Assembly: GCA_030018495.1 (NCBI GenBank)
Contig: JASEFS010000001.1
Coordinates: 1-64,000, forward strand
Reading direction: 5' to 3'
DNA from: Deltaproteobacteria bacterium
Lineage (GTDB): Bacteria; Desulfobacterota; Desulfobaccia; Desulfobaccales; 0-14-0-80-60-11
DNA: 64,000 nt
Shown: in pieces, positions 26,513 to 59,140 of the stretch
How positions within the stretch are numbered: the stretch's first letter is position 1
Layout of the letters: each line of letters starts with the position of its first letter
The notes under the pieces: generated by a model
The model's input: the letters and a program-made list of their open reading frames with translations, nothing else
Told to the model about the DNA's origin: nothing
Database searches by the model: none
Made by a program: the position numbers and the translations under genes

Positions 26513-27700
26513 CTACCGCTTCAGCCCGATTTCCTCATCCGTCAGGTAGCAGGCCGGGTCTGGGGCCCAGAGGTCGCCGGTGACGGCTTCGGCCCGGACC
26601 CGGAAGTTGCCGGCGCAGACGCTCAGCCACTGGCAGCCGGCGCAGCGTCCGGTGACGTGGCGCTTTTTGTCCTTGAGCTTGGCCAGGAGGGGATGGGAGA
26701 GGTCGGTCCAGATTTGGCTGAAGGGGCGCTCCCTGACGTTGCCGAAGGAAAAGTGCCGCCAAAACTGGTCGGCATGGACCTGCCCGTCCCAACTGACGCA
26801 GCCGATGCCCCGGCCCGAGTTGTTGCCTTCGTTCATTTTCAGAAGTTCCAGCACTTCCTTGGCCCGCTCCGGATTTTCTTTAAGGAGTTTCAAGTAAATG
26901 TAGGGGCCGTCCGCGTGGTTGTCCACGGTGAGGACTTCCACCTCGCGGCTCTGATCGAAAAGCCGCCGGGTGCGGGCGCAGATCAGGTCCACCAGGTCCC
27001 GGGTCTCGGCGTGGCTCAGGGCTTCGGACAACAGCTTGCTGCCGCGGCCGGTGTAGACCAGGTGGTAGAAGCAAATGCGGGGAATGTGGTACTCCTCCAC
27101 CAGGTCGAAAATGGCCGGCACTTCCCGGTAGTTGAGCCGGCTCATGGTGAAGCGCAGGCCCACTTTAAGTCCCGCCTCCTGACAATTCTTCACCCCTTCC
27201 ATAGCCGCCGCGAAAGAGCCGGGCTGGCCCCGGAATTTGTCGTGAGTGGCCTCGACGCCGTCCAGGCTGATGCCCACGTAGGAGAGGCCCAGCTTCTGGA
27301 GGTCCCGGGCCACCTCCCGGGTGATGAGGGTGCCGTTGGTGGAGATCACGGCCCGCATGCCGGATTTCACCGTGCGCTCCACCAGGGTGAAGAGGTCGTC
27401 CCGCATAAGCGGCTCGCCGCCGGAGAAGAGCACTACAGGGACGCCGAAATTTTTGAGGTCTTCAAGTAAGGCCAGGCCCTCGGAGTGGGTCAATTCATCC
27501 GGAGCCGCGGCCGCGGTGGCTTGGGCGTAGCAATGCAGACACTTCAGATTGCAGCGCTTGGTGACGTTCCACACCACCACCGGCTTTTTGTCCGCGGCGA
27601 ATTGCAGCAGATGGGAGGGCAGGTCTTGGGAGCGGCGGTGGTAGCGGAGTACGTCGCCGGCTTCCACCGCGCCGCAGTACAGTTTGGAAATGCCGATCAT
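26513..27700 (-). CDS. ahbC: AhbC: 12,18-didecarboxysiroheme deacetylase (radical SAM)
   Basis: 395 residues. In the alternative haem pathway of sulfate reducers and archaea, AhbC converts 12,18-didecarboxysirohaem to Fe-coproporphyrin III. The N-terminus MIGISKLYCGAVEAGDVLRY and LPSHLLQFAADKKPVVVWN are typical of AhbC; radical SAM cysteines are C50, C54 and C57 (CNLKCLHC), and a C-terminal SPASM-type region holds further cysteines (GCVSWDG, RCAGCQWLSVCAGNF, ACYL). The ATG overlaps the stop of the ClpX-like gene (TAATG), so the two are co-translated. ahbA, ahbB and ahbD are not in the window. Confidence 0.9.
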   Translation of the reverse strand: MIGISKLYCGAVEAGDVLRYHRRSQDLPSHLLQFAADKKPVVVWNVTKRCNLKCLHCYAQATAAAAPDELTHSEGLALLEDLKNFGVPVVLFSGGEPLMRDDLFTLVERTVKSGMRAVISTNGTLITREVARDLQKLGLSYVGISLDGVEATHDKFRGQPGSFAAAMEGVKNCQEAGLKVGLRFTMSRLNYREVPAIFDLVEEYHIPRICFYHLVYTGRGSKLLSEALSHAETRDLVDLICARTRRLFDQSREVEVLTVDNHADGPYIYLKLLKENPERAKEVLELLKMNEGNNSGRGIGCVSWDGQVHADQFWRHFSFGNVRERPFSQIWTDLSHPLLAKLKDKKRHVTGRCAGCQWLSVCAGNFRVRAEAVTGDLWAPDPACYLTDEEIGLKR

Positions 27701-29379
27701 TAGCGGTGTTCGCTGTCCCGGAACAGGGTGGTCTGATAGTACTCCCGGATGATCTGATTGAGATAAGAGTCCAGATTCAGGATGGCGTCCCGGGTTAGCA
27801 GGAAGCTTTCCTTGGAGGTGCGCTCCCTCACCAGCTTCAGGGCATGCTCCAGGTCCTTGGCTTGGCCCTGGCAGACGGAGTAGGCCGAGGTTTCCCGAGT
27901 GATCGCCTGCCACAGGATTTCATCCACCGCGTCCTCATCAAAGTGCATCTCCAATTCGTTCTCTTCCGAGAACTTTTCCTCAAAGCGGCGCACCTGCTGG
28001 TACATATGGCCCATTTCCTCGAACGCGCCTTTGAGGTCGCAGTCCCAGCGCAGGTACTGGTCGATGATGAGGTTCACCCGGGAATCGGTGAGGGGCAGCT
28101 GATAAAGGGTGAACAGCTCCTGCTCCCGCCGCCAGATGGATTCCCTGAGAAGGTCGCGCTCCCGCAGGCTGGCCTGCTCAAAGCGTCCGTGAAGGTCCGG
28201 ATCATCTGGATTTTCCAAAAGGCGCTGCAGTTCCTCGGCGGGATTCTCCACCACTTCCGGGGTGACCACGAATTCGGTGATATTGGTGGATGGCAGCCGT
28301 TTTTCGAACTGGATGAGGATCCGCTCAATTACACTGACCAGTCCCCGGGCGCCGGTCTTTTGCTGGGCGGCCTGGTCCGCTATGAGGCGCAGGGCCTTGT
28401 CTTCAAATTTGATGTCGATGCCGTAGGCCCGGAAATCCCGTTTTTTGCTGTTGATGATGGGGTTGTTGGGATTGATGAGAATCTCATAAAGATCGTCGGC
28501 CGTGAGCTCGTCCAAGACGGTGATGACCGGCAGCCGGCCGACGAATTCCGATTCAAAACCGAATTTGATGAGGTCCTCGGCGGTCACCTGCTTGAGCATC
28601 TGTTTGTCTGCTTCCTTGGTGGTGACGGACGCGCCGAAGCCGATTTCCTGCTTGGAGAGGCGCTCCTTGACGATCTTTTCCAGGCCGTTGAACGCGCCGC
28701 TGACGATAAAGAGGATATGGCGGGTGTTTACCGTGCGCTTTTCCTTTTTGCCGGTGCGGCGGTAGTGCTCGATGGCCTGTATCTGGGACACCGGGTCATG
28801 GGCGACTTTCAGGTCCACCTCGGTCTCTTCCATGGGCTTCAGGAGGGCCCGTTGGACGCCGGTGCGGGACACATCCGGTCCCCAGACGCTGCCGGAGGAG
28901 GCGATCTTGTCGACTTCGTCCAGGTAAATGATGCCGTATTGGGCCAATTCGATGTCGTCATCCGCGGCATGGACCAAATCCCGCACAAGATCCTCTACAT
29001 CGCCGCCCACATAGCCCGTTTCGCTGAACTTGGTGGCGTCGCCTTTGACGATGGGCACGCCCAGCTTCTTGGCGATGAGCTTGACCAAGTAAGTCTTGCC
29101 CACCCCGGTGGGGCCGACCAGGATGATGTTGTTCTTAATGGCGCCCACCCCTGATTCGGGCTCCCGGCCCTGCTCCAGAAAATGCCGGATGCGGTTGAAA
29201 TGGGTGCAGACTTTGGTGGCCAGAATGCTTTTGGCCTCTTCCTGCTTGATGACGTATTCGTTGAGGTAGGCCTCAAGCTCCTCAGGTTTCAAAGAGAAGT
29301 TAATCCGGCTGAGTTTGCCGGATTTGGTCTTGTCTTTTTCGGTTTTTTCCGGTTTGGGGATGAAATAAGGTGCAACCAC
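27700..29379 (-). CDS. ClpX-like AAA+ ATPase with C-terminal extension
   Basis: 559 residues, GTG start with AGGGAG upstream. Walker A GPTGVGKT (89-96), pore loop GYVG (122-125), Walker B IIYLDEVDKI (150-159) and sensor-2 GARG (343-346) are intact. It lacks the N-terminal zinc finger of ClpX but keeps IGFGA (246-250), the loop that docks ClpX onto ClpP. Residues about 380-559 form a helical extension not found in ClpX. Translational coupling to ahbC suggests a link to haem synthesis or haem-protein quality control. It is a paralogue of the AAA+ protein at 51.6 kb, which has lost the IGF loop. Confidence 0.85.
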   Translation of the reverse strand: MVAPYFIPKPEKTEKDKTKSGKLSRINFSLKPEELEAYLNEYVIKQEEAKSILATKVCTHFNRIRHFLEQGREPESGVGAIKNNIILVGPTGVGKTYLVKLIAKKLGVPIVKGDATKFSETGYVGGDVEDLVRDLVHAADDDIELAQYGIIYLDEVDKIASSGSVWGPDVSRTGVQRALLKPMEETEVDLKVAHDPVSQIQAIEHYRRTGKKEKRTVNTRHILFIVSGAFNGLEKIVKERLSKQEIGFGASVTTKEADKQMLKQVTAEDLIKFGFESEFVGRLPVITVLDELTADDLYEILINPNNPIINSKKRDFRAYGIDIKFEDKALRLIADQAAQQKTGARGLVSVIERILIQFEKRLPSTNITEFVVTPEVVENPAEELQRLLENPDDPDLHGRFEQASLRERDLLRESIWRREQELFTLYQLPLTDSRVNLIIDQYLRWDCDLKGAFEEMGHMYQQVRRFEEKFSEENELEMHFDEDAVDEILWQAITRETSAYSVCQGQAKDLEHALKLVRERTSKESFLLTRDAILNLDSYLNQIIREYYQTTLFRDSEHR

Positions 29380-49427: not shown

Positions 49428-50696
49428 TCACATAACAACGGCGCCATTTTCATAAAAAACATTGGGCGGCCGCACCCCGGCCAAGAGCTGGCAGCCGGCG
49501 TCCACCATAAGGCCGGCCACGATCTGGTTGGTCATTATAACTGCGGGATTGGGCTGGTAAATGCAGGCCAGCCGGGAGCGGTCATAGGGGCCCGGGTCCC
49601 TCTGTTCTATAATCTCCGACAGCCCCAATAACTCCGCGGGGGTCAGGCGGTCCCGGGCCGGGTCATATACTATCACCTGGCCGGCGGCCGCGCCGGTGCC
49701 GCCGCTGATGAGCAGTTTGCCGTGGTCTCTGGCCTTTTCACTGAGAACTACCCTGGTCTCAAAATTGTCCACGCAATCGATGATAATGTCATAGGGGGAG
49801 ACGTCGGTGTCTGCCCCGAAATAGCCGATCAAGCCGCGAGCCCGAGTGCCGTAGTGTTGGTTAAGGCGTTCGGCCAGCGCCGGGGCTTTGTTCCGGCCTA
49901 CGGCATCATAGAAAAAAATCTGCCGGTTCAGGTTGGTGGGCTCCACCACATCCGGGTCCATGAAGGTAAGGTTGGAAAAACCTGAAAACGCCAGGCCCAA
50001 ACCCACGAAATTTCCCAGGGCGCCGGCGCCCACCACCAGGATGGAGCGGTTTTGCGAACCAGGCGGGATTTTTTTCCTAGAATAGGTGATAAGGTCAGGC
50101 GACACGGCGCGGCCCATCAAATAATTTTTGGCTTCCTCCAAGGCGATCCCGGCGCCGATGATTCCCAGCACCGGGTCATGGGAGAGGGGTCCCGGCAGGT
50201 TCCGAGGCGGCATCACCTGCTCGAGCTCCTGCCATTCCCGTCCCTTGAAATAGGTGAAAATTTGCAGCCCTTCATTGTCGCAGTCTGTGATGAAAGACCC
50301 TCGGATAACCGCGCGGTTTTCGCGGAAAGCCTTTCCTAAGGCCAGCTTGGCGGCCAAGCCGTAAGAGCTCAGATCCACGATGATGCGGCAGTCCGAAAAG
50401 AAGTCGCCTAAAAAAGGGTGACTGTAAAAACCTTCCAGTGCACTAAGGCGCAGTTCCGGGTTGAGCTGGGCGGCAATTTGGGTCAAGGTGGCGTCCAGAT
50501 AAGGCGCGATGACTTTCAGGCGGTTAATCCCCAGGGCGGCGGCGGACAGCAGGAAGAGCGAGGCCGCGGCATCAGTGTCGCCCACTACGCCGACGGCGGC
50601 CTGCTCCAAGGCCTGCTGATTCCAGCCGTCGATGCGCAACTGCCGGTCCAGCCTTAAGGCAGAAGCACGATGAGAAGGAGCCTGGTTTTGGGTCAT
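49428..50696 (-). CDS. E1-like ThiF-family enzyme with two Rossmann halves
   Basis: 422 residues. The C-terminal half is an active-looking E1/ThiF domain: nucleotide loop GAGALG (223-228), acidic D247, R258 in NLNRQ, K270, DCVDN (307-311) and a Cys (C378) before a segment reading QPNPAVIMTNQIVAGL, the expected place of the thioester cysteine. The N-terminal half begins RQLRIDGWNQQALEQAAVGVVGD, an E1-type start, but has GDTDAA in place of the glycine loop, so it looks inactive. Two unequal halves recall eukaryotic UBA1. Probably adenylates and transfers the Ubl at 54.4 kb. 66 bases, partly CAAAAAC-type repeat, separate it from the JAMM gene. Confidence 0.85.
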   Translation of the reverse strand: MTQNQAPSHRASALRLDRQLRIDGWNQQALEQAAVGVVGDTDAAASLFLLSAAALGINRLKVIAPYLDATLTQIAAQLNPELRLSALEGFYSHPFLGDFFSDCRIIVDLSSYGLAAKLALGKAFRENRAVIRGSFITDCDNEGLQIFTYFKGREWQELEQVMPPRNLPGPLSHDPVLGIIGAGIALEEAKNYLMGRAVSPDLITYSRKKIPPGSQNRSILVVGAGALGNFVGLGLAFSGFSNLTFMDPDVVEPTNLNRQIFFYDAVGRNKAPALAERLNQHYGTRARGLIGYFGADTDVSPYDIIIDCVDNFETRVVLSEKARDHGKLLISGGTGAAAGQVIVYDPARDRLTPAELLGLSEIIEQRDPGPYDRSRLACIYQPNPAVIMTNQIVAGLMVDAGCQLLAGVRPPNVFYENGAVVM

Positions 50697-50762
50697 TTTG
50701 ACTGCGGTTTTTGGTTTTTAGTTTCCTGTTTTCGGTTAAAAGCTAAGGTGAATATACTTGCA

Positions 50763-51560
50763 TCACATTCTTTCAATTACGTCCGGCTTATAAGGAACGG
50801 GCCGGATTTTCTCAAGCACTTCCGCTCTGAGAAGCCTGACATCATCCTCCGATAAGCGCCTCTCAGATTCGACATAGCGCAACTCCGCCGCCCGGCTGCG
50901 GATCGCGGCATGGCCGGAGAGGATGCTGCGCTTTTTATAATGAATCTCCTGGTGATGCCAGCCGCCGTCCCCGACCACGATGGCGTAGCAGAAGCCGCCG
51001 ATGATGGTTTCCAAAAGAACGGCCTCCTGAACGGGCCTGTCGGTGATCAAACTGACGCTCCCTTTGGCCAAATCGGTTTCCTGATAGCGGCCTTCGACCA
51101 GGCAGACGAGATCATCAATCACAATTTCCCGCTTCGCCACGGGTTGCCGGAGCTTGGTGGTGACGTAATCCAGGACGGTGCGCTGGTTGGCTTCGTCCAC
51201 CGCGGAAAACTTGCGCAAATCCATGCTGCCATGGGAGTGAATCCAGCCGTTAATGACCAGGTCGGGGGGGAGTTCTTCCTGAAACGCGGCGATTTTCTCC
51301 GGAACAAGGCTGGCGTACTCCAAGATGTTTTCTTCATTGACGGGGAGGCCGATGTCAATAATGGTCTCCGGCCGGTCGCGGGCCGCCAGGGTGAAGCCGT
51401 ACCATTCAAAGCTGTCTTTAAAAGACTTGCGCACCAGTTCGTTGATCTTGAAGGCTTTGTCCAGGGCGAAGCGGGTGATGGCAATATCTTCGGGCAATGC
51501 AGCCAGCATGATTTCCCGGGGTTCCCGCCGCTTCAAGCCGGTCAGGGACTTGAACCTCAT
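50763..51560 (-). CDS. JAMM/JAB metallopeptidase
   Basis: 265 residues. The full JAMM zinc motif is present: E52 (FEWYGF), then H108-S-H110-G, seven residues, S119, two residues, D122 (IHSHGSMDLRKFSAVDEAN). This is the isopeptidase signature of Rpn11, CSN5 and bacterial Cap3/BilC-type enzymes. The rest of the protein has no recognised domain; the C-terminal third is helical. Overlaps the AAA+ gene by 4 bases (ATGA). Inferred role: trimming the Ubl precursor and removing the Ubl from targets. Confidence 0.88.
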   Translation of the reverse strand: MRFKSLTGLKRREPREIMLAALPEDIAITRFALDKAFKINELVRKSFKDSFEWYGFTLAARDRPETIIDIGLPVNEENILEYASLVPEKIAAFQEELPPDLVINGWIHSHGSMDLRKFSAVDEANQRTVLDYVTTKLRQPVAKREIVIDDLVCLVEGRYQETDLAKGSVSLITDRPVQEAVLLETIIGGFCYAIVVGDGGWHHQEIHYKKRSILSGHAAIRSRAAELRYVESERRLSEDDVRLLRAEVLEKIRPVPYKPDVIERM

Positions 51561-52660
51561 GCCAGTTTTTCCCTTACATAATGCCGGTCCAGGTGGAGCT
51601 TGCCGGTGAACGTGCCGGGAAGCCGATACATGTCTTCCAGGAGGATGCGGTGCAGAATGCTGATGAGACCACGGGCCCCGGTGCCCTCCTGTTTGGCCTG
51701 CTCGGCGATGAGCCTTAAGGCTTCATCATCGAATTCCAGGTCGATGCCCCAGACCTTAAGGTCATTGCCATAGGCCAGCAAAGGGCTGTCCGCGCTTTTG
51801 GTCATGATGTCCATCAGATCTTGGATAGTGAGGGGGTCGTACACCACCTTCACGGGAAACCGGGCCATGAGTTGGCGTTCCATGCCGAAGGACACCAGGT
51901 CTTCGTTCAACAAAAAGTTCTGCCATTCCCCGGCCAGGCTCTGCTTGACCATGCGCCGCTTGACAATATTTTTCAGGTCTTCGAACACACCGCCGGCGAT
52001 AAACAGAACGTGTTTGGTGGAAATAGAGATTCTCTCCTGGCCCCACTCAAAGGTGTTCTCGACGCCCTCAACCAAGCGGAGAAGCCCCTTTTGAACGCCT
52101 TTGCCGGAGACATCCCGGGTGCTGACGCTTTCGGCGGCGATTTTATCGATTTCATCGAGATACACCATGCCCATTTGGGAGATGAGGGGATTGCCGCCGC
52201 CGGCGACCAAAAGATCCACCAGGATGTCCGTGACGTTTTGGCCCACATAACCCACTTCGCTGAACTTTGTCATATCTTCGACCACGAAGGGCACGCCCAC
52301 TTGTTCGGAAAAGGTTTCCGCGGTGTAGGTTTTGCCCACTCCGGTGGGGCCGATGATGAGGATGTTGGCCTTCGGGGTGCGGGTGTTCTTCAGGGCCTGC
52401 TCCAGGTCGCCTTTGTATTCCCCTAAAACCTGCTTGAGCGCGGAGGCCAGCCGGCGATAGTGGAAGGCCACCGCGGTCGCTATGATCTTTTTGCCTCTTT
52501 CCTGGCCGATGACGAACTTGTCCACATCTTCTTTGAGGTCGACCGGGGTCTTGTTGAATTCCAGAATGTGCTGAATGGTGCCGCCGGTTTTCTGGTCACG
52601 GAATGCTTCCAGTTTTTCCTGGATGCGGCGGCGGCTTCGTTCTGAAGTGCTTTGGCTCAT
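51557..52660 (-). CDS. ClpX-like AAA+ ATPase without ClpP-docking loop
   Basis: 367 residues. Walker A GPTGVGKT (104-111), pore loop GYVG (137-140), Walker B VYLDEIDK (166-173), sensor-2 GTGARG (326-331) are intact. It has no zinc-binding domain, and where ClpX has the IGF loop this protein reads RRMVKQSLAGEWQNFLLNED (235-254), without IGF. It should be an unfoldase that does not use ClpP. Position between the unknown 176-aa protein and JAMM, with 4-base overlaps on both sides, makes a stoichiometric complex likely. Confidence 0.87.
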   Translation of the reverse strand: MSQSTSERSRRRIQEKLEAFRDQKTGGTIQHILEFNKTPVDLKEDVDKFVIGQERGKKIIATAVAFHYRRLASALKQVLGEYKGDLEQALKNTRTPKANILIIGPTGVGKTYTAETFSEQVGVPFVVEDMTKFSEVGYVGQNVTDILVDLLVAGGGNPLISQMGMVYLDEIDKIAAESVSTRDVSGKGVQKGLLRLVEGVENTFEWGQERISISTKHVLFIAGGVFEDLKNIVKRRMVKQSLAGEWQNFLLNEDLVSFGMERQLMARFPVKVVYDPLTIQDLMDIMTKSADSPLLAYGNDLKVWGIDLEFDDEALRLIAEQAKQEGTGARGLISILHRILLEDMYRLPGTFTGKLHLDRHYVREKLA

Positions 52661-53187
52661 AAATGTTCCTGCTGTTTATTGTTAATAATGGCGTTCAGCC
52701 GGTGCAGGAGGCTTCCCCAGGCAGCGGCAAGCTCTGGGTTGGCTTCCGCCTCACCGGCCGATTCTAAACGGGAAATTTCCCGTTGGATGATTTCCCGAGC
52801 CGCCAGGGTGCGGAAATGCACGCGGGCCAGGGCGGCCGGCGCCAACTCGGGATTCAGGCGGAAAAGCGGCCCGGAGAGCAACAATTCCTCCGGAGAATGG
52901 GCGAACCTGAGATAAGGATTGTCGGCAGCCGCTAAAATTTCCTGGGTTAACCAATACCCTGGTGCACCGGTCAGAGAAAACAGCGGCGCTTCAAAGGAAT
53001 CCTTTTCTACCAGGCCCAGGGCCAGCAGTTCTGCCGCTCCCGGCAGGGAAAAATCCCGGAGTTGGGCCAAAAAGCCGTGGTCAAGACCATATTCCCGCAC
53101 CAAGGCGCTGACCACCGTAAAAGCGGTCCTGGCGAAAGGCTTTTTGGTCCTGGTCCGAGCCTGTTTAAGGTGCCGGCGGATATCCAT
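52657..53187 (-). CDS. Unknown helical protein of the Ubl operon
   Basis: 176 residues from ATG 53187, one base after the upstream stop (TGATATG). Basic N-terminus (MDIRRHLKQARTRTKKPFAR), then mostly helix. It contains no cysteine, so it is neither a RING nor an E2/HECT-type ligase, and shows no motif I recognise. Conserved position between the E2-like and AAA+ genes suggests an adaptor or substrate-recognition subunit. Overlaps the AAA+ gene by 4 bases. Confidence 0.7.
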   Translation of the reverse strand: MDIRRHLKQARTRTKKPFARTAFTVVSALVREYGLDHGFLAQLRDFSLPGAAELLALGLVEKDSFEAPLFSLTGAPGYWLTQEILAAADNPYLRFAHSPEELLLSGPLFRLNPELAPAALARVHFRTLAAREIIQREISRLESAGEAEANPELAAAWGSLLHRLNAIINNKQQEHL

Positions 53188-53188
53188 A

Positions 53189-54364
53189 TCAGTCAAAAAT
53201 GTTTTTTATTTCGACCTCCCCTGAGACCATTCTGGGATCATCAGGAGGCACCCGGTAATCATCAAAACTAATCAGCCGCTCCTGGTGAATGCGGTCCAGG
53301 CTGTGGTAGCCGTTGCGCCGACGGGCGTTGTAGCCGTAATAAAGCGCATTGATGCCGGTTTCCAGGGCCTTGATAATGTTGGCGGCGCTGAAGGTCAGGG
53401 ACGGCTGAAAATCTTTGGGCGTGCAGATGTCCTGGCCGGAGCTGTGGCGGCGCAGCAGCGGGTGCTTGTAATGCTCGATAACAAAAGGGGTGAGGCGCCT
53501 GGCGGTGGAAACCGCCACCCGGCAGTCGGGAAAAATATAGGGGCGGCCGTAGAAGTCTTTGAGGGCGTAGACGCCGGTGCGCTTATAAATGCGGTACTCG
53601 TTTTTGCCGCGCCCGCGGGCAAAGCCGAAGCCGTCCACCTCCAGCGAGCCTTTTTCAACCAAATAAGTCAGGAGGCCGCTATGCCTGCGGTATAGGTCGG
53701 CCCATTTTTCTTGTTCAGCCAAGGCCTGGCTGAGGCGGGCCCGTTCCTGGGCCGAGATTTTTGCGGCTAGAGCCTGAAAAAACCATTCTTTGAGAACGTC
53801 GGCCGGCACCAACCCTGAGGGCGGCGGGCCCGGGCTGCGTTCGGCCCGATCGGCCAGGCGGGCGATGGCCGCACGCAGGTTTTTATTCTCCGGCAGCTTA
53901 CCGCTTTGCCTGGCATAGGGCGGCGGGAGCTGCACATGTTCCTCAATCAATTCCAGCAACTCCTTCCGGTCGAGGCCGCGCCGGGACAAAGACCGGCTGC
54001 GCTTCAGAAAATAGGGCATTATCTGGAAAAGGATGACCGCAAGCACAGGGTCCGGAAGGCTTGGATTATCCCGGTTGGACTCGGGGATATCGCCCAATAC
54101 GGACCGGCGCATCTCCTCCCACCCTACGGGGTCAAAGTCGGCATACTGCTCAAGCAGCGATTCCAGTTTGACGGTCTTTATAAAAGCGGAATCCTGGGCC
54201 TTGATTAACAGGGGGCTGGAAGGAACAGGATTGCCTTGGGAATCCAGCTCGGCGGGTGGATTGGCTTCAAGTTCCTGGGCTATGTAGGGATCGAAGACAA
54301 GGGGCAGATATAAGAAATTCCCGGCCACCAACAGACCGGGATGGCAGTTCCACAGTCGCCGCAT
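53189..54364 (-). CDS. E2-like (UBC-fold) protein with N-terminal extension
   Basis: 391 residues from ATG 54364, which overlaps the stop of the Ubl gene (TGATG). The C-terminal region reads like a ubiquitin-conjugating core: a strand pair (NEYRIYKRTG, YIFPDCRVAVST), then RRLTPFVIEHYKHPLL, and HSSGQDICTPKDF where H301-P302 and C314 match the HPN..G.ICL motif of E2 enzymes; PSLTFSAANIIKALETGI then resembles the E2 helix after the active Cys. Residues 1-230 are an extension of unknown role with a helix-rich centre. The E2 call is by motif alignment only. Confidence 0.6.
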   Translation of the reverse strand: MRRLWNCHPGLLVAGNFLYLPLVFDPYIAQELEANPPAELDSQGNPVPSSPLLIKAQDSAFIKTVKLESLLEQYADFDPVGWEEMRRSVLGDIPESNRDNPSLPDPVLAVILFQIMPYFLKRSRSLSRRGLDRKELLELIEEHVQLPPPYARQSGKLPENKNLRAAIARLADRAERSPGPPPSGLVPADVLKEWFFQALAAKISAQERARLSQALAEQEKWADLYRRHSGLLTYLVEKGSLEVDGFGFARGRGKNEYRIYKRTGVYALKDFYGRPYIFPDCRVAVSTARRLTPFVIEHYKHPLLRRHSSGQDICTPKDFQPSLTFSAANIIKALETGINALYYGYNARRRNGYHSLDRIHQERLISFDDYRVPPDDPRMVSGEVEIKNIFD

Positions 54365-54762
54365 CAAATGAATCTCGAGGCTCCTGCCGGCCGACCGAAC
54401 CCTCCTTCCTGGGGTTTGATAGCTCGTATCGGCACATAGAGATATTTTTCCCCTGCTTCGGTTTCTTCTATGACTGCGCCTTCCAGGGCGCCGCCTTTGA
54501 TTTCCCGGCCGCGAAAAAGCAGTTTGCCGCCTTGGAGCTGGCGGTTGATGTCTTCGAGAATGACCTGCTCTTCAATGCTGAGGTTCTGGCGGTGCAAAGC
54601 GTCGTCGACCAATTCCTTGAGGGGGAGATGTTCATAGGTGCCGGGGTCATACACCACGACCAGCCCTTCGCCGGCCTGGCCCGGTAGAATTTCCAGAACC
54701 AGGGGCAGTTTTTCCCGGCGCTCTCCAGGGCGCCGCTCTTTTTGCAATACAGTTTCCGTCAT
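54364..54762 (-). CDS. Ubiquitin-like beta-grasp protein (precursor with Gly-Gly)
   Basis: 132 residues; first gene of the operon, with CTGGAG about 6 bases before the ATG. Predicted strands LPLVLEIL (19-26) and GLVVVYD (33-39), a helix (47-75), then GKLLFRGREI (79-88), which parallels QRLIFAGKQL of ubiquitin, and EKYLYVPIRAI (105-115), parallel to its last strand. The chain continues to EGG (119-121) and then an 11-residue tail FGRPAGASRFI. Cleavage after the Gly pair by the neighbouring JAMM would expose a mature C-terminus. An N-terminal extension (1-18) is charged. The assignment is by pattern, not by search. Confidence 0.55.
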   Translation of the reverse strand: MTETVLQKERRPGERREKLPLVLEILPGQAGEGLVVVYDPGTYEHLPLKELVDDALHRQNLSIEEQVILEDINRQLQGGKLLFRGREIKGGALEGAVIEETEAGEKYLYVPIRAIKPQEGGFGRPAGASRFI

Positions 54763-54847: not shown

Positions 54848-54876
54848 ATAATAATGTGAAAAGTCAAATATGTCAA
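54848..54876 (-). promoter_or_regulatory. Promoter of the Ubl operon
   Basis: On the minus strand a perfect TTGACA (54876-54871), 17-base spacer and TATTAT (54853-54848, five of six). The surrounding 54815-54880 is strongly AT-rich compared with the genes on either side. A transcript would start near 54841, leaving a leader of about 80 bases, and separates the Ubl operon from the HdrA genes upstream. Confidence 0.65.
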
Positions 54877-54912: not shown

Positions 54913-56541
54913 CTAAGGGGTCATTTTATTTTTTGGGGAAAGCAGACGCATCACCCGGGCGGCCGCGGCGCTCCCCTGGCAGACGGTTTCCGAGATATCC
55001 TGGGGGCCCTGGCAGGTGCCGGCCAGAAAAACGCCGGGCAAAGTGGAGTCCACGGGGTACAGAGTGGGGTGGCGCCCGCGGAGAAAGCCGAAAGCATCCC
55101 GCTCAGGGAAGGCTTCCTCAAAAACCGGCAATTCTTTGGGCGCCTGAAGGCCCGCGGCCAGAACCGCCAGGTCCACGGTGAGCTGCGCCCGCTGACCGGC
55201 TTGCTGATCATCATAGTGGATCACCGGGCGGCCCAAGGCATCGGCTTCGACGCGGCCGGGCAGGCCTTTGATGAAGCGCACTCCGGCCTTTTTCGCCCGC
55301 AGATAGAGTTCTTCAAAGCCCTTGCCGGAAGTGCGGATGTCGTTGAAAAAGATGGTGGCCTGAATCTCAGGGTCATGCTCCAGGGCCAGCATGGCCTCCT
55401 TGATGGACGCGGTGCAACAGATTCCGGAACAATACGGCAGAAAACGCCGGTCCCGGGAACCGACGCATTGGATAAAGGCCAGGGACTTGACCGGGGTCCC
55501 GTCCGGGGCGATGAGGCTGCCGCCGGTGGGCCCGGTGGCGCACACCAGACGCTCGTATTCCAGAGCGGTGAGGACCCGGGGAATCCTGCCGTAGCCGTAC
55601 TCGCTTTTGACGGCGGGGTCCAGGGGCCGGGCACCGGTGGCCAAGATGACGGCTCCCACCGCGAGCTTTTTTTTGACCGGTGCGACTCCCAGGTCAATGG
55701 CCTGGTGGTCGCAGGCCGCCACGCACATCTGGCAGTCGATGCAGTACTCTTTTTCCAGGGTGGCGCTCAGGGGCACGGCTTGGGCGAAAATGATGCGGAT
55801 GCATTTTCTGGGTTTGAGGCCCAAATTCCAGCGGCTGGGCACAATAACCGGGCAGACTTCGGCGCAGGAGCCGCAGCCCACACATTTGGCCATGTCCACA
55901 TAGCGGGGTTTGAGGGTGACCGTGACTTCAAACGCGCCGGCCCGGCCGCTGATAGAGTCCAGGTCGGCAAAAGTAAGAAGTTCGATGTTATTGTGGGTGG
56001 CCACCTCCACCAGGCGGGGGCCCAGGATGCAGATGGAGCAATCCAGAGTCGGGAAGGTCTTGTCCAGTTGGGCCATGGTCCCGCCGATGCTGAGGGAGGA
56101 GTCCACCAGATAGACCCGGTGGCCGGCGTCGGCCAGGTCCAGGGCGGCCTGACAGCCGCCGATGCCGCCTCCCACCACCAGGACGTCTCTAGATGCAGGG
56201 GCAGGCCTTGGGGCGGCTTCGGGAGGAGCCGCGCAGGCCAGAGTGAGGACTCCCGCCGCGGTCTCCGGATCGGAAATGGAAAGGAGGTCGATTACAGGCG
56301 GGGCTTTTTCTCCGAACACGCGGCGGAACAAATCGGCATTCACTTCCGGACCGCAGGCCGCGATGAGGAGCCCTTCCGGTTCGCTGGCAAGATAGTTCTT
56401 CAATTCCTTGAGGCCGGCAGGAGTGCACAGGGGTGCCGGCAGGCGCGCCGCCAGTCCGCCCCGGGCCAGGTACTCTTGCAGGACCCGGAGGTCGATTTTC
56501 AAGTCCGGACAGGGACAGATAAGGACTTTGTTTATCGTCAT
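54913..56541 (-). CDS. HdrA-type flavin/iron-sulfur oxidoreductase subunit
   Basis: 542 residues. FAD-binding GGGIGG (124-129), the HdrA cysteine block TMAQLDKTFPTLDCSICILG (155-174) that binds an extra cluster, two ferredoxin motifs CVGCGSCAEVCP (220-231) and CIDCQMCVAACD (267-278), and the C-terminal GVFLAGTCQGPQDI FAD segment. It resembles QmoA/HdrA and would pass electrons between a donor and HdrBC-like or membrane partners. Good GGTGGGAA before the ATG. Last gene of a five-gene HdrA cluster on the minus strand. Confidence 0.92.
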   Translation of the reverse strand: MTINKVLICPCPDLKIDLRVLQEYLARGGLAARLPAPLCTPAGLKELKNYLASEPEGLLIAACGPEVNADLFRRVFGEKAPPVIDLLSISDPETAAGVLTLACAAPPEAAPRPAPASRDVLVVGGGIGGCQAALDLADAGHRVYLVDSSLSIGGTMAQLDKTFPTLDCSICILGPRLVEVATHNNIELLTFADLDSISGRAGAFEVTVTLKPRYVDMAKCVGCGSCAEVCPVIVPSRWNLGLKPRKCIRIIFAQAVPLSATLEKEYCIDCQMCVAACDHQAIDLGVAPVKKKLAVGAVILATGARPLDPAVKSEYGYGRIPRVLTALEYERLVCATGPTGGSLIAPDGTPVKSLAFIQCVGSRDRRFLPYCSGICCTASIKEAMLALEHDPEIQATIFFNDIRTSGKGFEELYLRAKKAGVRFIKGLPGRVEADALGRPVIHYDDQQAGQRAQLTVDLAVLAAGLQAPKELPVFEEAFPERDAFGFLRGRHPTLYPVDSTLPGVFLAGTCQGPQDISETVCQGSAAAARVMRLLSPKNKMTP

Positions 56542-56767
56542 ATTCCCACCTAAAAATCCACGGCGAAAAGGGGAAAAGGGGAAAAGGCGAAAGAGGTCAG
56601 AAAAAAATATTTTCTTGTCAAAACCATTTGCTTCACCAGAAAAAAGTTAACTCCTTCAAGCCGAAAGGAAACCTGATTGAGAGATATCACCAAGTGGCGA
56701 TTGAGCCAGGTGACACAGGCGTCTCTGCGAGAGCGGAGGTTGAAGCCTGCGGCTGCAAATAACACCT
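56542..56767. repeat. GGGGAAAA runs and CACAGGC palindrome
   Basis: A GGCGAAAAGGGGAAAA-type tandem run at 56561-56592 and a decayed CACAGGC..GCCTGCGGCT palindrome at 56711-56757 separate the two HdrA genes. The same repeat pair recurs in the next gap (59141-59307). Confidence 0.7.
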
Positions 56768-59140
56768 CTATTCTGGGTTTCCCTTTTCTCCTTTTCCCCT
56801 TTTCGTCTTTTCCCCCTTCTCCAGGGCCTCGGCCATTTCCCGGATAACCTTTTGAAATACCCTCCCCTCGGTGGCGGATATCCAGGCCAGGCGCAGGCGG
56901 TCGGGATCGATGCCCTTTTTGGCCAGTTTGGTTTTCAGTTTCTCCACCCTCTCCCGGGCGCGCAGATTGCCGGACACGTAATGGCAGTCCCCCGGGGGAT
57001 GGCACCCGGACACCAGGACCAGGCCGGCGCCCTTCTCAAAGGCGTGCAGAATGAAATTGGGATGCACCCGTCCGGCGCACATGGTGCGGATGATGCGCAC
57101 CTGGGGGGAATATTGCAGGCGCGAGACCCCGGCGAAATCGGCCCCGGCATAGGAGCACCAGTTGCAGCAAAAGGCCAGGATTTTGCTTTCGGGGTCGGAG
57201 GCCAGGGCCTCGTCGATCTGCGCCAGAAGCATGGCATCGGTAAAGCCCAGAGAAGTGATGGCGCCGCTGGGACAGGTGCCGGCGCAGATGCCGCAGCCCT
57301 TGCAGGCCGCGGTTATGACCCGGGCTTTGGGTTCCTCCTCGGTGCCCGCCATGACAATGGCCTGAAACGGACAGTCCTCGGCGCAGAAGCCGCAGCCCAG
57401 GCAAAGCTCTTCGTTGACTTCGGCGACCAGGCCTTCCAGCGTGATGGCGTCGTGGGCGAACAGGGCCAGCACCTTGGCCGCCGCGCCCGAGGCCTGGGTC
57501 AGGGATTCGGCGATGTCCTTGGGGCCCTGGCAGGAGCCGGCCAGATAAATGCCGTCCAGGACGGTTTCCAAGGGCTTGAGTTTGGGGTGGGACTCCAGGA
57601 AAAAGCCGTCCGGCCCCACGGGCAGTTTCAGCACTTCTCTCAAGGGCGCGCCGTTGCCGGGAGTCAGCCCCACCGCAAGAACGGCCAAATCAACCTGGTC
57701 TTCGGAAGTTGACCGGAACAATTCATTGTGCGCTCTAATCAGGAGCCGGCTGTCACCCGCGGCTTGAATATCTTCAACTTTGCCTCTTAAAAACAGGATG
57801 CCTGCGTCACGGGCGGCGTTGTAAAGCGCTTCCCAATCCTTTTTGACCGTGCGGATGTCCCGGTAATAAATGCGGATGCGGGCTTCGGGCAGGCGGTCCT
57901 TGAGCTCCAAAGCCTGGCGCAGGGCGGTGGGGCAGCAGATGCGGGAGCAGGCCCGGTTGCCGTCTTCCTCCCGGGAGCCCACGCACATGATAAAGGCGAT
58001 ATCCCGGGGTTGCTTTTCGCTGTAGGGCAGGAGCACCCGGCCCCGGGTGGGGCCGTCAGGGGCCAGGAGGCGTTCCAGATTTAAGGTGGTGACGACTCCG
58101 GGAAGTGCGGCCCAGGCCTCATAACGGGTGCCAACGGGGTCAAACGGCTTGAAACCGGTGGCCACTACCATGGCCCCCACCGTAAAGCGGTGCTCCGTTT
58201 CTTGAAAATCAAGGCTGACAGCCCCCTGGGGGCAGGCCTGGAGGCACCGGGCGCAACGGTCGCAGTGGGCCGCATCCACCACATAGCGGGCCGGAAACGC
58301 GGTGGGGGAGGGCAGGAAGATGGCCGTCCGGAAGGCCAACCCGGCTTGGCGTTCGTCCGGCACCTGAATGGGGCAGGCCGAGGCGCAAAGGCCGCAAAGG
58401 TCGCAGGTATCGGCCACGGCAGGGACTGATTGACGCACAACAATGTCAAAGTTGCCTAAGTGGCCGGAAACCTCGGTTATCTCGCCGCCGGTGAGCACCG
58501 TGATACCGGGATGGTGGGCGACCGCAGCCATGAGCGGGTTGATTAAGGAAAGTGCGGTCTGACCGTGAGGGAAGGTGCGGTTCAGCAGATTGGCCATGCC
58601 GCCCAGGATCGGCTCCCGCTCCACTATGATAACGGGATGTCCGGCGTCGGCGATGTCCAGGGCGGCCCTCAGGCCTGCGGGGCCGCCGCCGATGACCAGG
58701 GCCCGGCGGGTGACGGGCACCTGGCGGTCGGCCAGGGGGCGGGCCAGGCGGGCCTTGGCCAAGCCCATGCGGATTAGTTCCAGGGCTTTGACCGCAGCCG
58801 CGTCAGGTTCGCCGCTGTGGACCCAGGTGCAGTGTTCCCGGAGGTTGACAAGTTCCAGCAGGTAGGGATTGAGGCCGCTCTCTATTAACAAACGCCGGAA
58901 GGTGAGCTCGTGGAGCTTGGGGGAGCAGGCCGCGATGACCACCCTGTTTATACCGAAGTGCTCAATATCCTTTTGTATCTCCTTTTGGCCGGCCTCGGAG
59001 CAGGTGTACAGGTGGTGGCGGCAGACCGCCACATCGGGAAGATGCTGCGCCTGGTTCACCAGGGCCTCAGGGTCGACGGTCCCGGCGATGTTCAGGCCGC
59101 AGTGGCAAATGTAGAGTCCGAGGCGCAAATCTTCGGTCAT
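56768..59140 (-). CDS. HdrA-MvhD fusion (QmoB-like)
   Basis: 790 residues. N-terminal HdrA domain with FAD loop GGGPAG (151-156) and ferredoxin motifs CDLCGLCASACP (246-257) and CDRCARCLQACP (293-304); later CLGCGFCAEDCP and CKGCGICAGTCP; then an MvhD domain (about 650-765) with FCCNWCSYAGAD and MCAGRVHPN. MvhD accepts electrons from hydrogenase or formate dehydrogenase. The cysteines of the HdrA block are replaced (NRTFPHGQTALSLINPL), so one cluster is missing here. The last 19 residues (EKGEKTKRGKGEKGNPE region) are encoded by a GGGGAAAA repeat. Confidence 0.9.
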   Translation of the reverse strand: MTEDLRLGLYICHCGLNIAGTVDPEALVNQAQHLPDVAVCRHHLYTCSEAGQKEIQKDIEHFGINRVVIAACSPKLHELTFRRLLIESGLNPYLLELVNLREHCTWVHSGEPDAAAVKALELIRMGLAKARLARPLADRQVPVTRRALVIGGGPAGLRAALDIADAGHPVIIVEREPILGGMANLLNRTFPHGQTALSLINPLMAAVAHHPGITVLTGGEITEVSGHLGNFDIVVRQSVPAVADTCDLCGLCASACPIQVPDERQAGLAFRTAIFLPSPTAFPARYVVDAAHCDRCARCLQACPQGAVSLDFQETEHRFTVGAMVVATGFKPFDPVGTRYEAWAALPGVVTTLNLERLLAPDGPTRGRVLLPYSEKQPRDIAFIMCVGSREEDGNRACSRICCPTALRQALELKDRLPEARIRIYYRDIRTVKKDWEALYNAARDAGILFLRGKVEDIQAAGDSRLLIRAHNELFRSTSEDQVDLAVLAVGLTPGNGAPLREVLKLPVGPDGFFLESHPKLKPLETVLDGIYLAGSCQGPKDIAESLTQASGAAAKVLALFAHDAITLEGLVAEVNEELCLGCGFCAEDCPFQAIVMAGTEEEPKARVITAACKGCGICAGTCPSGAITSLGFTDAMLLAQIDEALASDPESKILAFCCNWCSYAGADFAGVSRLQYSPQVRIIRTMCAGRVHPNFILHAFEKGAGLVLVSGCHPPGDCHYVSGNLRARERVEKLKTKLAKKGIDPDRLRLAWISATEGRVFQKVIREMAEALEKGEKTKRGKGEKGNPE

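Follow-up and report, generated by a model that had tools for sequence, protein, structure and literature searches.

We describe here six genes in a 64,000-nucleotide stretch of DNA (the window; contig JASEFS010000001.1, positions 1 to 64,000) from a deltaproteobacterium, which probably encode a reversible ubiquitin-like protein (Ubl) conjugation system together with an unfoldase that is dedicated to it and independent of proteases. The genes lie head to tail on the minus strand between 49428 and 54762, and all six open reading frames listed in an initial annotation of this DNA were found there. In the direction of transcription they encode a candidate Ubl of 132 residues (54364-54762), an E2-like protein of 391 residues (53189-54364), a protein of 176 residues termed P176 (52657-53187), a ClpX-clade AAA+ ATPase of 367 residues (51557-52660), a JAMM/JAB metallopeptidase of 265 residues (50763-51560) and an E1-like enzyme of 422 residues (49428-50696). 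The promoter claimed ahead of the Ubl gene was confirmed at the level of sequence consensus, as a sigma-70-like TTGACA-17-TATTAT sequence at 54848-54876 on the minus strand agrees with the consensus at 11 of 12 positions and is the best of seven sites in the region. The genes overlap at three junctions, by 1 base between the Ubl and E2 genes (TGATG) and by 4 bases (ATGA) at both P176/AAA and AAA/JAMM; at the other two there is a 1-base gap (E2/P176, TGATATG) and a 66-base gap (JAMM/E1). The JAMM, E1 and AAA+ motifs that had been reported were all located in the window proteins, and Pfam matches above cut-off were obtained only for the AAA+ and E1 members of the set.

The set is carried by a group of sulfate-reducing bacteria, with about 40 loci, nearly all in Desulfobacterota. 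Relatives of the E1 were found in 18 of 99 related genomes, and the JAMM, Ubl and E2 profiles matched exactly the same 18; likewise, when 395 genomes spread over the phylum were searched with profiles, JAMM, E2 and Ubl were each found in the same 20. The co-occurrence in relatives on which the initial annotation had staked its proposal is therefore decisively present. A single-sequence scan of genome contigs with the E2 found no relatives, and an alignment-based profile search of the genomes of 84,980 species then gave 37 loci, nearly all from Desulfobacterota, including the cultured isolate Desulfoferrobacter suflitae DRH4 and with one outlier in Candidatus Methylomirabilota. The distribution within families is patchy. 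Two gene orders were seen, Ubl-E2-P176-AAA-JAMM-E1 and E1-Ubl-E2-P176-AAA-JAMM, along with a third group of loci in which no E1 adjoins the set, and in all 28 genome-contig loci that hold a JAMM gene the AAA gene comes directly before it, the two overlapping by 4 bases in 23 of these loci. Because the gene set and its order are found again in dozens of genomes, we conclude that the grouping of the six genes is not due to chance.

The set can also be broken up without losing its members. One chromosome has E2, P176 and E1 at one site and Ubl, AAA and JAMM at another, with an E1 remnant beside the latter, and in two further genomes (G003 and G006) the set is scattered across contigs, yet complete. 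P176 usually stays with the E2 when the operon splits; in G006 it instead accompanies the Ubl, AAA and JAMM genes. The first of these splits suggests that there are two modules, one for conjugation, consisting of E2, P176 and E1, and another, consisting of Ubl, AAA and JAMM, for read-out or removal. Pairwise distances calculated for each of the six proteins correlate with one another (r 0.81-0.90 over 24 loci, with none of 499 permutations reaching the observed values), which indicates joint inheritance and not interaction, because the relatedness of the hosts is shared.

The AAA+ protein is closest to ClpX (NF003745, 7e-78, although its 262 bits fall below the 359-bit equivalog cut-off) and retains the AAA+ core, with Walker A at position 104, the GYVG pore loop at 137, Walker B at 167, GARGL at 328 and sensor 2. 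The GYVG pore loop is found in 42 of 45 orthologs. The description of the protein as ClpX-type in the initial annotation is therefore correct for the core, but two other parts of ClpX are missing in every ortholog: the N-terminal zinc-binding domain, seen as CSFC...CDEC in the genome's own ClpX, and the ClpP-docking loop [LIVM]GFG, which occurs in 0 of 45 and is deleted exactly at the loop position when compared with the genome's own ClpX. The own ClpX of L080 keeps its docking loop. Given that zinc domain and docking loop are both missing, the AAA+ protein does not appear to be a ClpXP feeder, and to judge from the alignments the motor has been retained in evolution while the interface to ClpP has been lost.

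A potential explanation for the set that would need a protease is that the AAA+ ring delivers tagged proteins, once unfolded, to ClpP or HslV for destruction, as in degradation by ubiquitin and the proteasome. The clear placement of the protein in the ClpX clade is in keeping with this, as is the presence of a ClpX and an HslU-like gene elsewhere in the genome. However, the docking loop is deleted in all orthologs although the pore loop is retained, the protein has no HslU-type I-domain, and the neighbourhood of the loci holds no recurring protease gene; we therefore regard tagging for destruction as unlikely. We also noted a second ClpX-like AAA+ protein of 559 residues in the window (27700-29379, minus strand), which keeps an IGFG docking loop, is without the zinc domain, has a long C-terminal extension and adjoins a radical-SAM-like gene.

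Conservation of the Ubl ends at the GlyGly of the motif PQEGG (117-121; P117, Q118, E119, G120 and G121), which is invariant in 35 aligned sequences. What follows ranges from 0 to 151 residues; 47 sequences, in which some genomes appear twice, gave 31 distinct tails, and several of the proteins end exactly at GG. In four loci (L024, L025, L044 and L045) PQEGG is closely followed, in the same reading frame, by a GNAT acetyltransferase domain, in the manner of the fusions between ubiquitin and ribosomal proteins. As conservation stops at GG and the tails are variable or absent, the pattern is that of a trimmed precursor, and the protein appears to bear the hallmark of a conjugated modifier; the 11-residue tail of the window protein, FGRPAGASRFI, is predicted to be cut off. 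The identification of this protein as a Ubl candidate thus stands, amended in that its initial product would be a precursor extending beyond GG. AlphaFold2 modelled it with a mean predicted local distance difference test (pLDDT) score of 80.9 and a core above 90, with strands at 21-27, 34-38, 80-83, 97-100 and 106-115 and helices at 48-56 and 63-76, giving the core order beta-beta-alpha-alpha-beta-beta-beta. A second Ubl copy was seen in the genome that contains L054 (G102, C1:98125-98457), far from the operon and beside an E2-similar stretch. An ArsR-like regulator gene is present in the Ubl locus of four genomes (L058, L062, L063 and L064), and in one of these (L063:7226-7585) it lies just upstream of the Ubl gene.

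The C-terminal half of the E1-like enzyme is a ThiF domain (PF00899, 5.6e-32, residues 216-411) with the motifs GAGALG (223-228), D247, NLNRQ (255-259), DN..R (310-315) and Cys378, so that the residues for binding nucleotide and Mg are present; Cys378 is invariant in 29 sequences. The top PDB matches were Uba1 (the best, 6e-20), Uba4 and MoeB. The N-terminal half was invisible to Pfam and lacks the GxGxxG and DN..R residues; when it was compared with an approximate MoeB sequence using hhalign it matched with an E-value of 3.4e-10 and a score of 69, against at most 23 in 100 shuffles, whereas the two halves matched each other weakly (4 of 150 shuffles scored as high). Since the N-half is MoeB-like but is without the key residues, a single chain with one inactive and one active adenylation domain is indicated, and the E1-like enzyme of the initial annotation, with its motifs confirmed, is better described as a fused pseudo-dimer. 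Uba1 is likewise a single chain in which an inactive adenylation domain precedes an active one, but at 422 residues the protein described here differs from it in order and length, lacks both a separate large Cys domain and a ubiquitin-fold domain, and has Cys378 near the C-terminus of the active domain.

This architecture bears on a further alternative, in which Ubl, E1 and JAMM, instead of tagging proteins, would form a sulfur carrier system of the ThiS, MoaD or CysO sort that serves the synthesis of cofactors or amino acids. The E1 is indeed ThiF/MoeB-like, and some bacterial sets of Ubl, E1 and JAMM serve sulfur transfer (PMC1779556); against this, the fused inactive/active E1 pair resembles the conjugating E1s, the E2-like HP..C protein and the AAA+ unfoldase are always present and have no known role in such pathways, and no rhodanese or sulfurtransferase family recurs near the loci. 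We consider a sulfur carrier function very improbable.

In the E2-like protein, H301, P302 and Cys314 (HP...IC) are invariant in 38 sequences, and no invariant His follows Cys314 in the alignment (residue numbers are those of the window protein; the alignment numbering is 11 lower). The AlphaFold2 model has a mean pLDDT of 84.8, with values above 90 across most of the UBC region, and in its C-terminal part a helix, four strands, the Cys and a helix follow in UBC order. Mainly from this site, the order of the elements and the context, we consider it very probable that the protein is an E2. Neither it nor the Ubl nor P176, a fast-diverging protein encoded between the E2 and AAA genes, matched any family above cut-off in Pfam, NCBIfam or PADLOC, and the E2 profile found no match among PDB sequences; the set thus adds three families for which there is no Pfam model. 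P176 gave a PDB profile match to ribosomal protein L20 (E 0.025), which we judged to be a chance similarity of basic helices. In the JAMM protein the metal site is complete, with E52, H108, H110, S119 and D122 invariant in 15 sequences and one residue more than usual between the HxH and the Ser. Seven of these 15 match Prok-JAB (PF14464, best E 0.0027), and the best PDB match, which is weak, is the Rpn11-like protein of Caldiarchaeum (6fju).

Taken together, these features suggest a bacterial tag-and-unfold machine without a protease. The Ubl would be made with a C-terminal tail or fused protein, and JAMM would cut after PQEGG; the E1 would then adenylate the exposed glycine and take the Ubl onto Cys378, from which it would be passed to Cys314 of the E2. 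Attachment of the Ubl to targets by the E2 would follow, probably with P176 as a cofactor or specificity factor. The AAA+ ring would recognise the tag and pull the target through the GYVG pore, and JAMM, translated with the AAA+ protein from overlapping genes and possibly in complex with it, would remove the tag during pulling. Because the ClpP-docking loop is lost, the ring would unfold or extract its targets, in the manner of Cdc48, instead of feeding ClpP.

Several points weigh against this scheme. The evidence for recognition of the Ubl and binding of JAMM by the AAA+ ring consists of gene overlap and co-occurrence. No recognisable E3 was found, and P176 had no E3 match in Pfam. When the structural models were compared using Foldseek, the top PDB match of the Ubl was SUMO/Smt3, but weakly (E 0.06), and UBE2A/Rad6, the best and most repeated recognisable class for the E2, was also a weak match (E 0.45). 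The two models, both of good confidence, thus have orders of elements that fit the beta-grasp and UBC folds expected in the initial annotation, but their matches to known folds are weak. It can be seen in hhalign comparisons of the E2 profile with four human E2s (approximate sequences) that HP falls on HP and IC on IC, in register; however, 86 of 300 shuffled profiles scored as high, which is no better than chance. As shuffles score equally, we do not use this comparison as proof, and the assignment as an E2 draws on motif, predicted strand order and context.

The surroundings of the set bear on whether it might serve anti-phage defence of the Bil or cyclic oligonucleotide-based antiphage signalling system (CBASS) sort. 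The genes on either side of it vary between genomes and are metabolic in appearance; upstream of the set in the window lie two large genes that have flavin adenine dinucleotide- and iron-sulfur-type motifs (54913-59140). Around the loci no defence, mobile-element, protease, rhodanese or sulfurtransferase gene family recurs, and no other gene family recurs in most of them. The bacterial E1/E2/JAB/Ubl sets whose function is known act against phages (for example, PMC10097602), and a patchy distribution within families would also fit such a role. However, the neighbours are variable and ordinary, the set was absent from the plasmid, phage and viral collections searched, PADLOC matched only generic E1 and AAA domains, and inheritance is congruent for all six proteins. 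We conclude that a defence function is improbable. Two families were seen near some of the loci. A small coiled-coil-like protein of 89-117 residues, likely an accessory component, adjoins or lies inside the set in five of five loci (L046:4949-5281, L067:5758-6090, L068:5874-6143, L071:5862-6197 and L077:12788-13141). A metallo-beta-lactamase-like and TPR-like protein recurs near the set (L046:1813-3009, L048:3700-4935, L049:10765-12030, L052:8561-9841 and L074:3841-5031), once directly before the Ubl gene and once before a displaced E2 gene, and recalls the metallo-beta-lactamase of operon type 6a.

Among known systems, BilABCD has separate Ubl, E2-like, JAB and E1 genes together with a fast-diverging helical protein, as does the set described here. 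The same likeness holds for operon type 6d, but in type 6d the E2 lacks a His upstream of the Cys and carries an invariant one downstream of it (PMC1779556), whereas the E2 described here has His301 before the Cys and no invariant His after it. CBASS Cap2/Cap3 differs in that E1 and E2 are fused there and separate here, and no CD-NTase or other gene family recurs in most of the loci. The ubiquitin operon of Caldiarchaeum subterraneum has a RING E3 and, to our knowledge, no ClpX-type unfoldase. It likewise brings Ubl, E1, E2 and an Rpn11-like JAMM together (PMC5654768), with an E1 architecture that differs from that of the set here. A 2006 survey by Iyer, Burroughs and Aravind described five operon types with E1/JAB, 6a-6e, with no AAA+ protein (PMC1779556), and we found no open-access paper that brings together ClpX, a JAB domain and a ubiquitin-like protein, although prior mention is possible in later Aravind-group or Bil work. 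The suggestion that pairing with a ClpX-type unfoldase was undescribed is upheld to this extent: no known operon type that could be checked contains an AAA+ unfoldase, but priority is not proven.

The 26S proteasome base and lid (Rpt ring with Rpn11) and Cdc48/p97 share with the set an AAA+ ring, a JAMM and a ubiquitin-type tag, but the ring here is of the ClpX clade, not Rpt or Cdc48, and unlike the proteasome the set has no peptidase chamber gene; the likeness would be an analogy of function and not homology of assembly. It is possible, at a little under an even chance, that the set is an independently evolved, protease-free counterpart of the ubiquitin-processing head of the proteasome, a ClpX-derived ring without ClpP and with a JAMM partner, in which a bacterial protein tagged with the Ubl, itself made as a precursor (GNAT-fused in some species), loses its tag in the same step as it is unfolded or extracted. 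Known bacterial Ubl sets are anti-phage or uncharacterised, and none that could be checked carries its own unfoldase; the set described here looks like a conserved housekeeping system with parts that could link tagging to unfolding. Its presence in the cultured D. suflitae DRH4 makes the idea directly testable. If it is true, the logic of tag, AAA+ ring and JAMM seen in the proteasome and Cdc48 would have arisen more than once, in bacteria without a dedicated protease.

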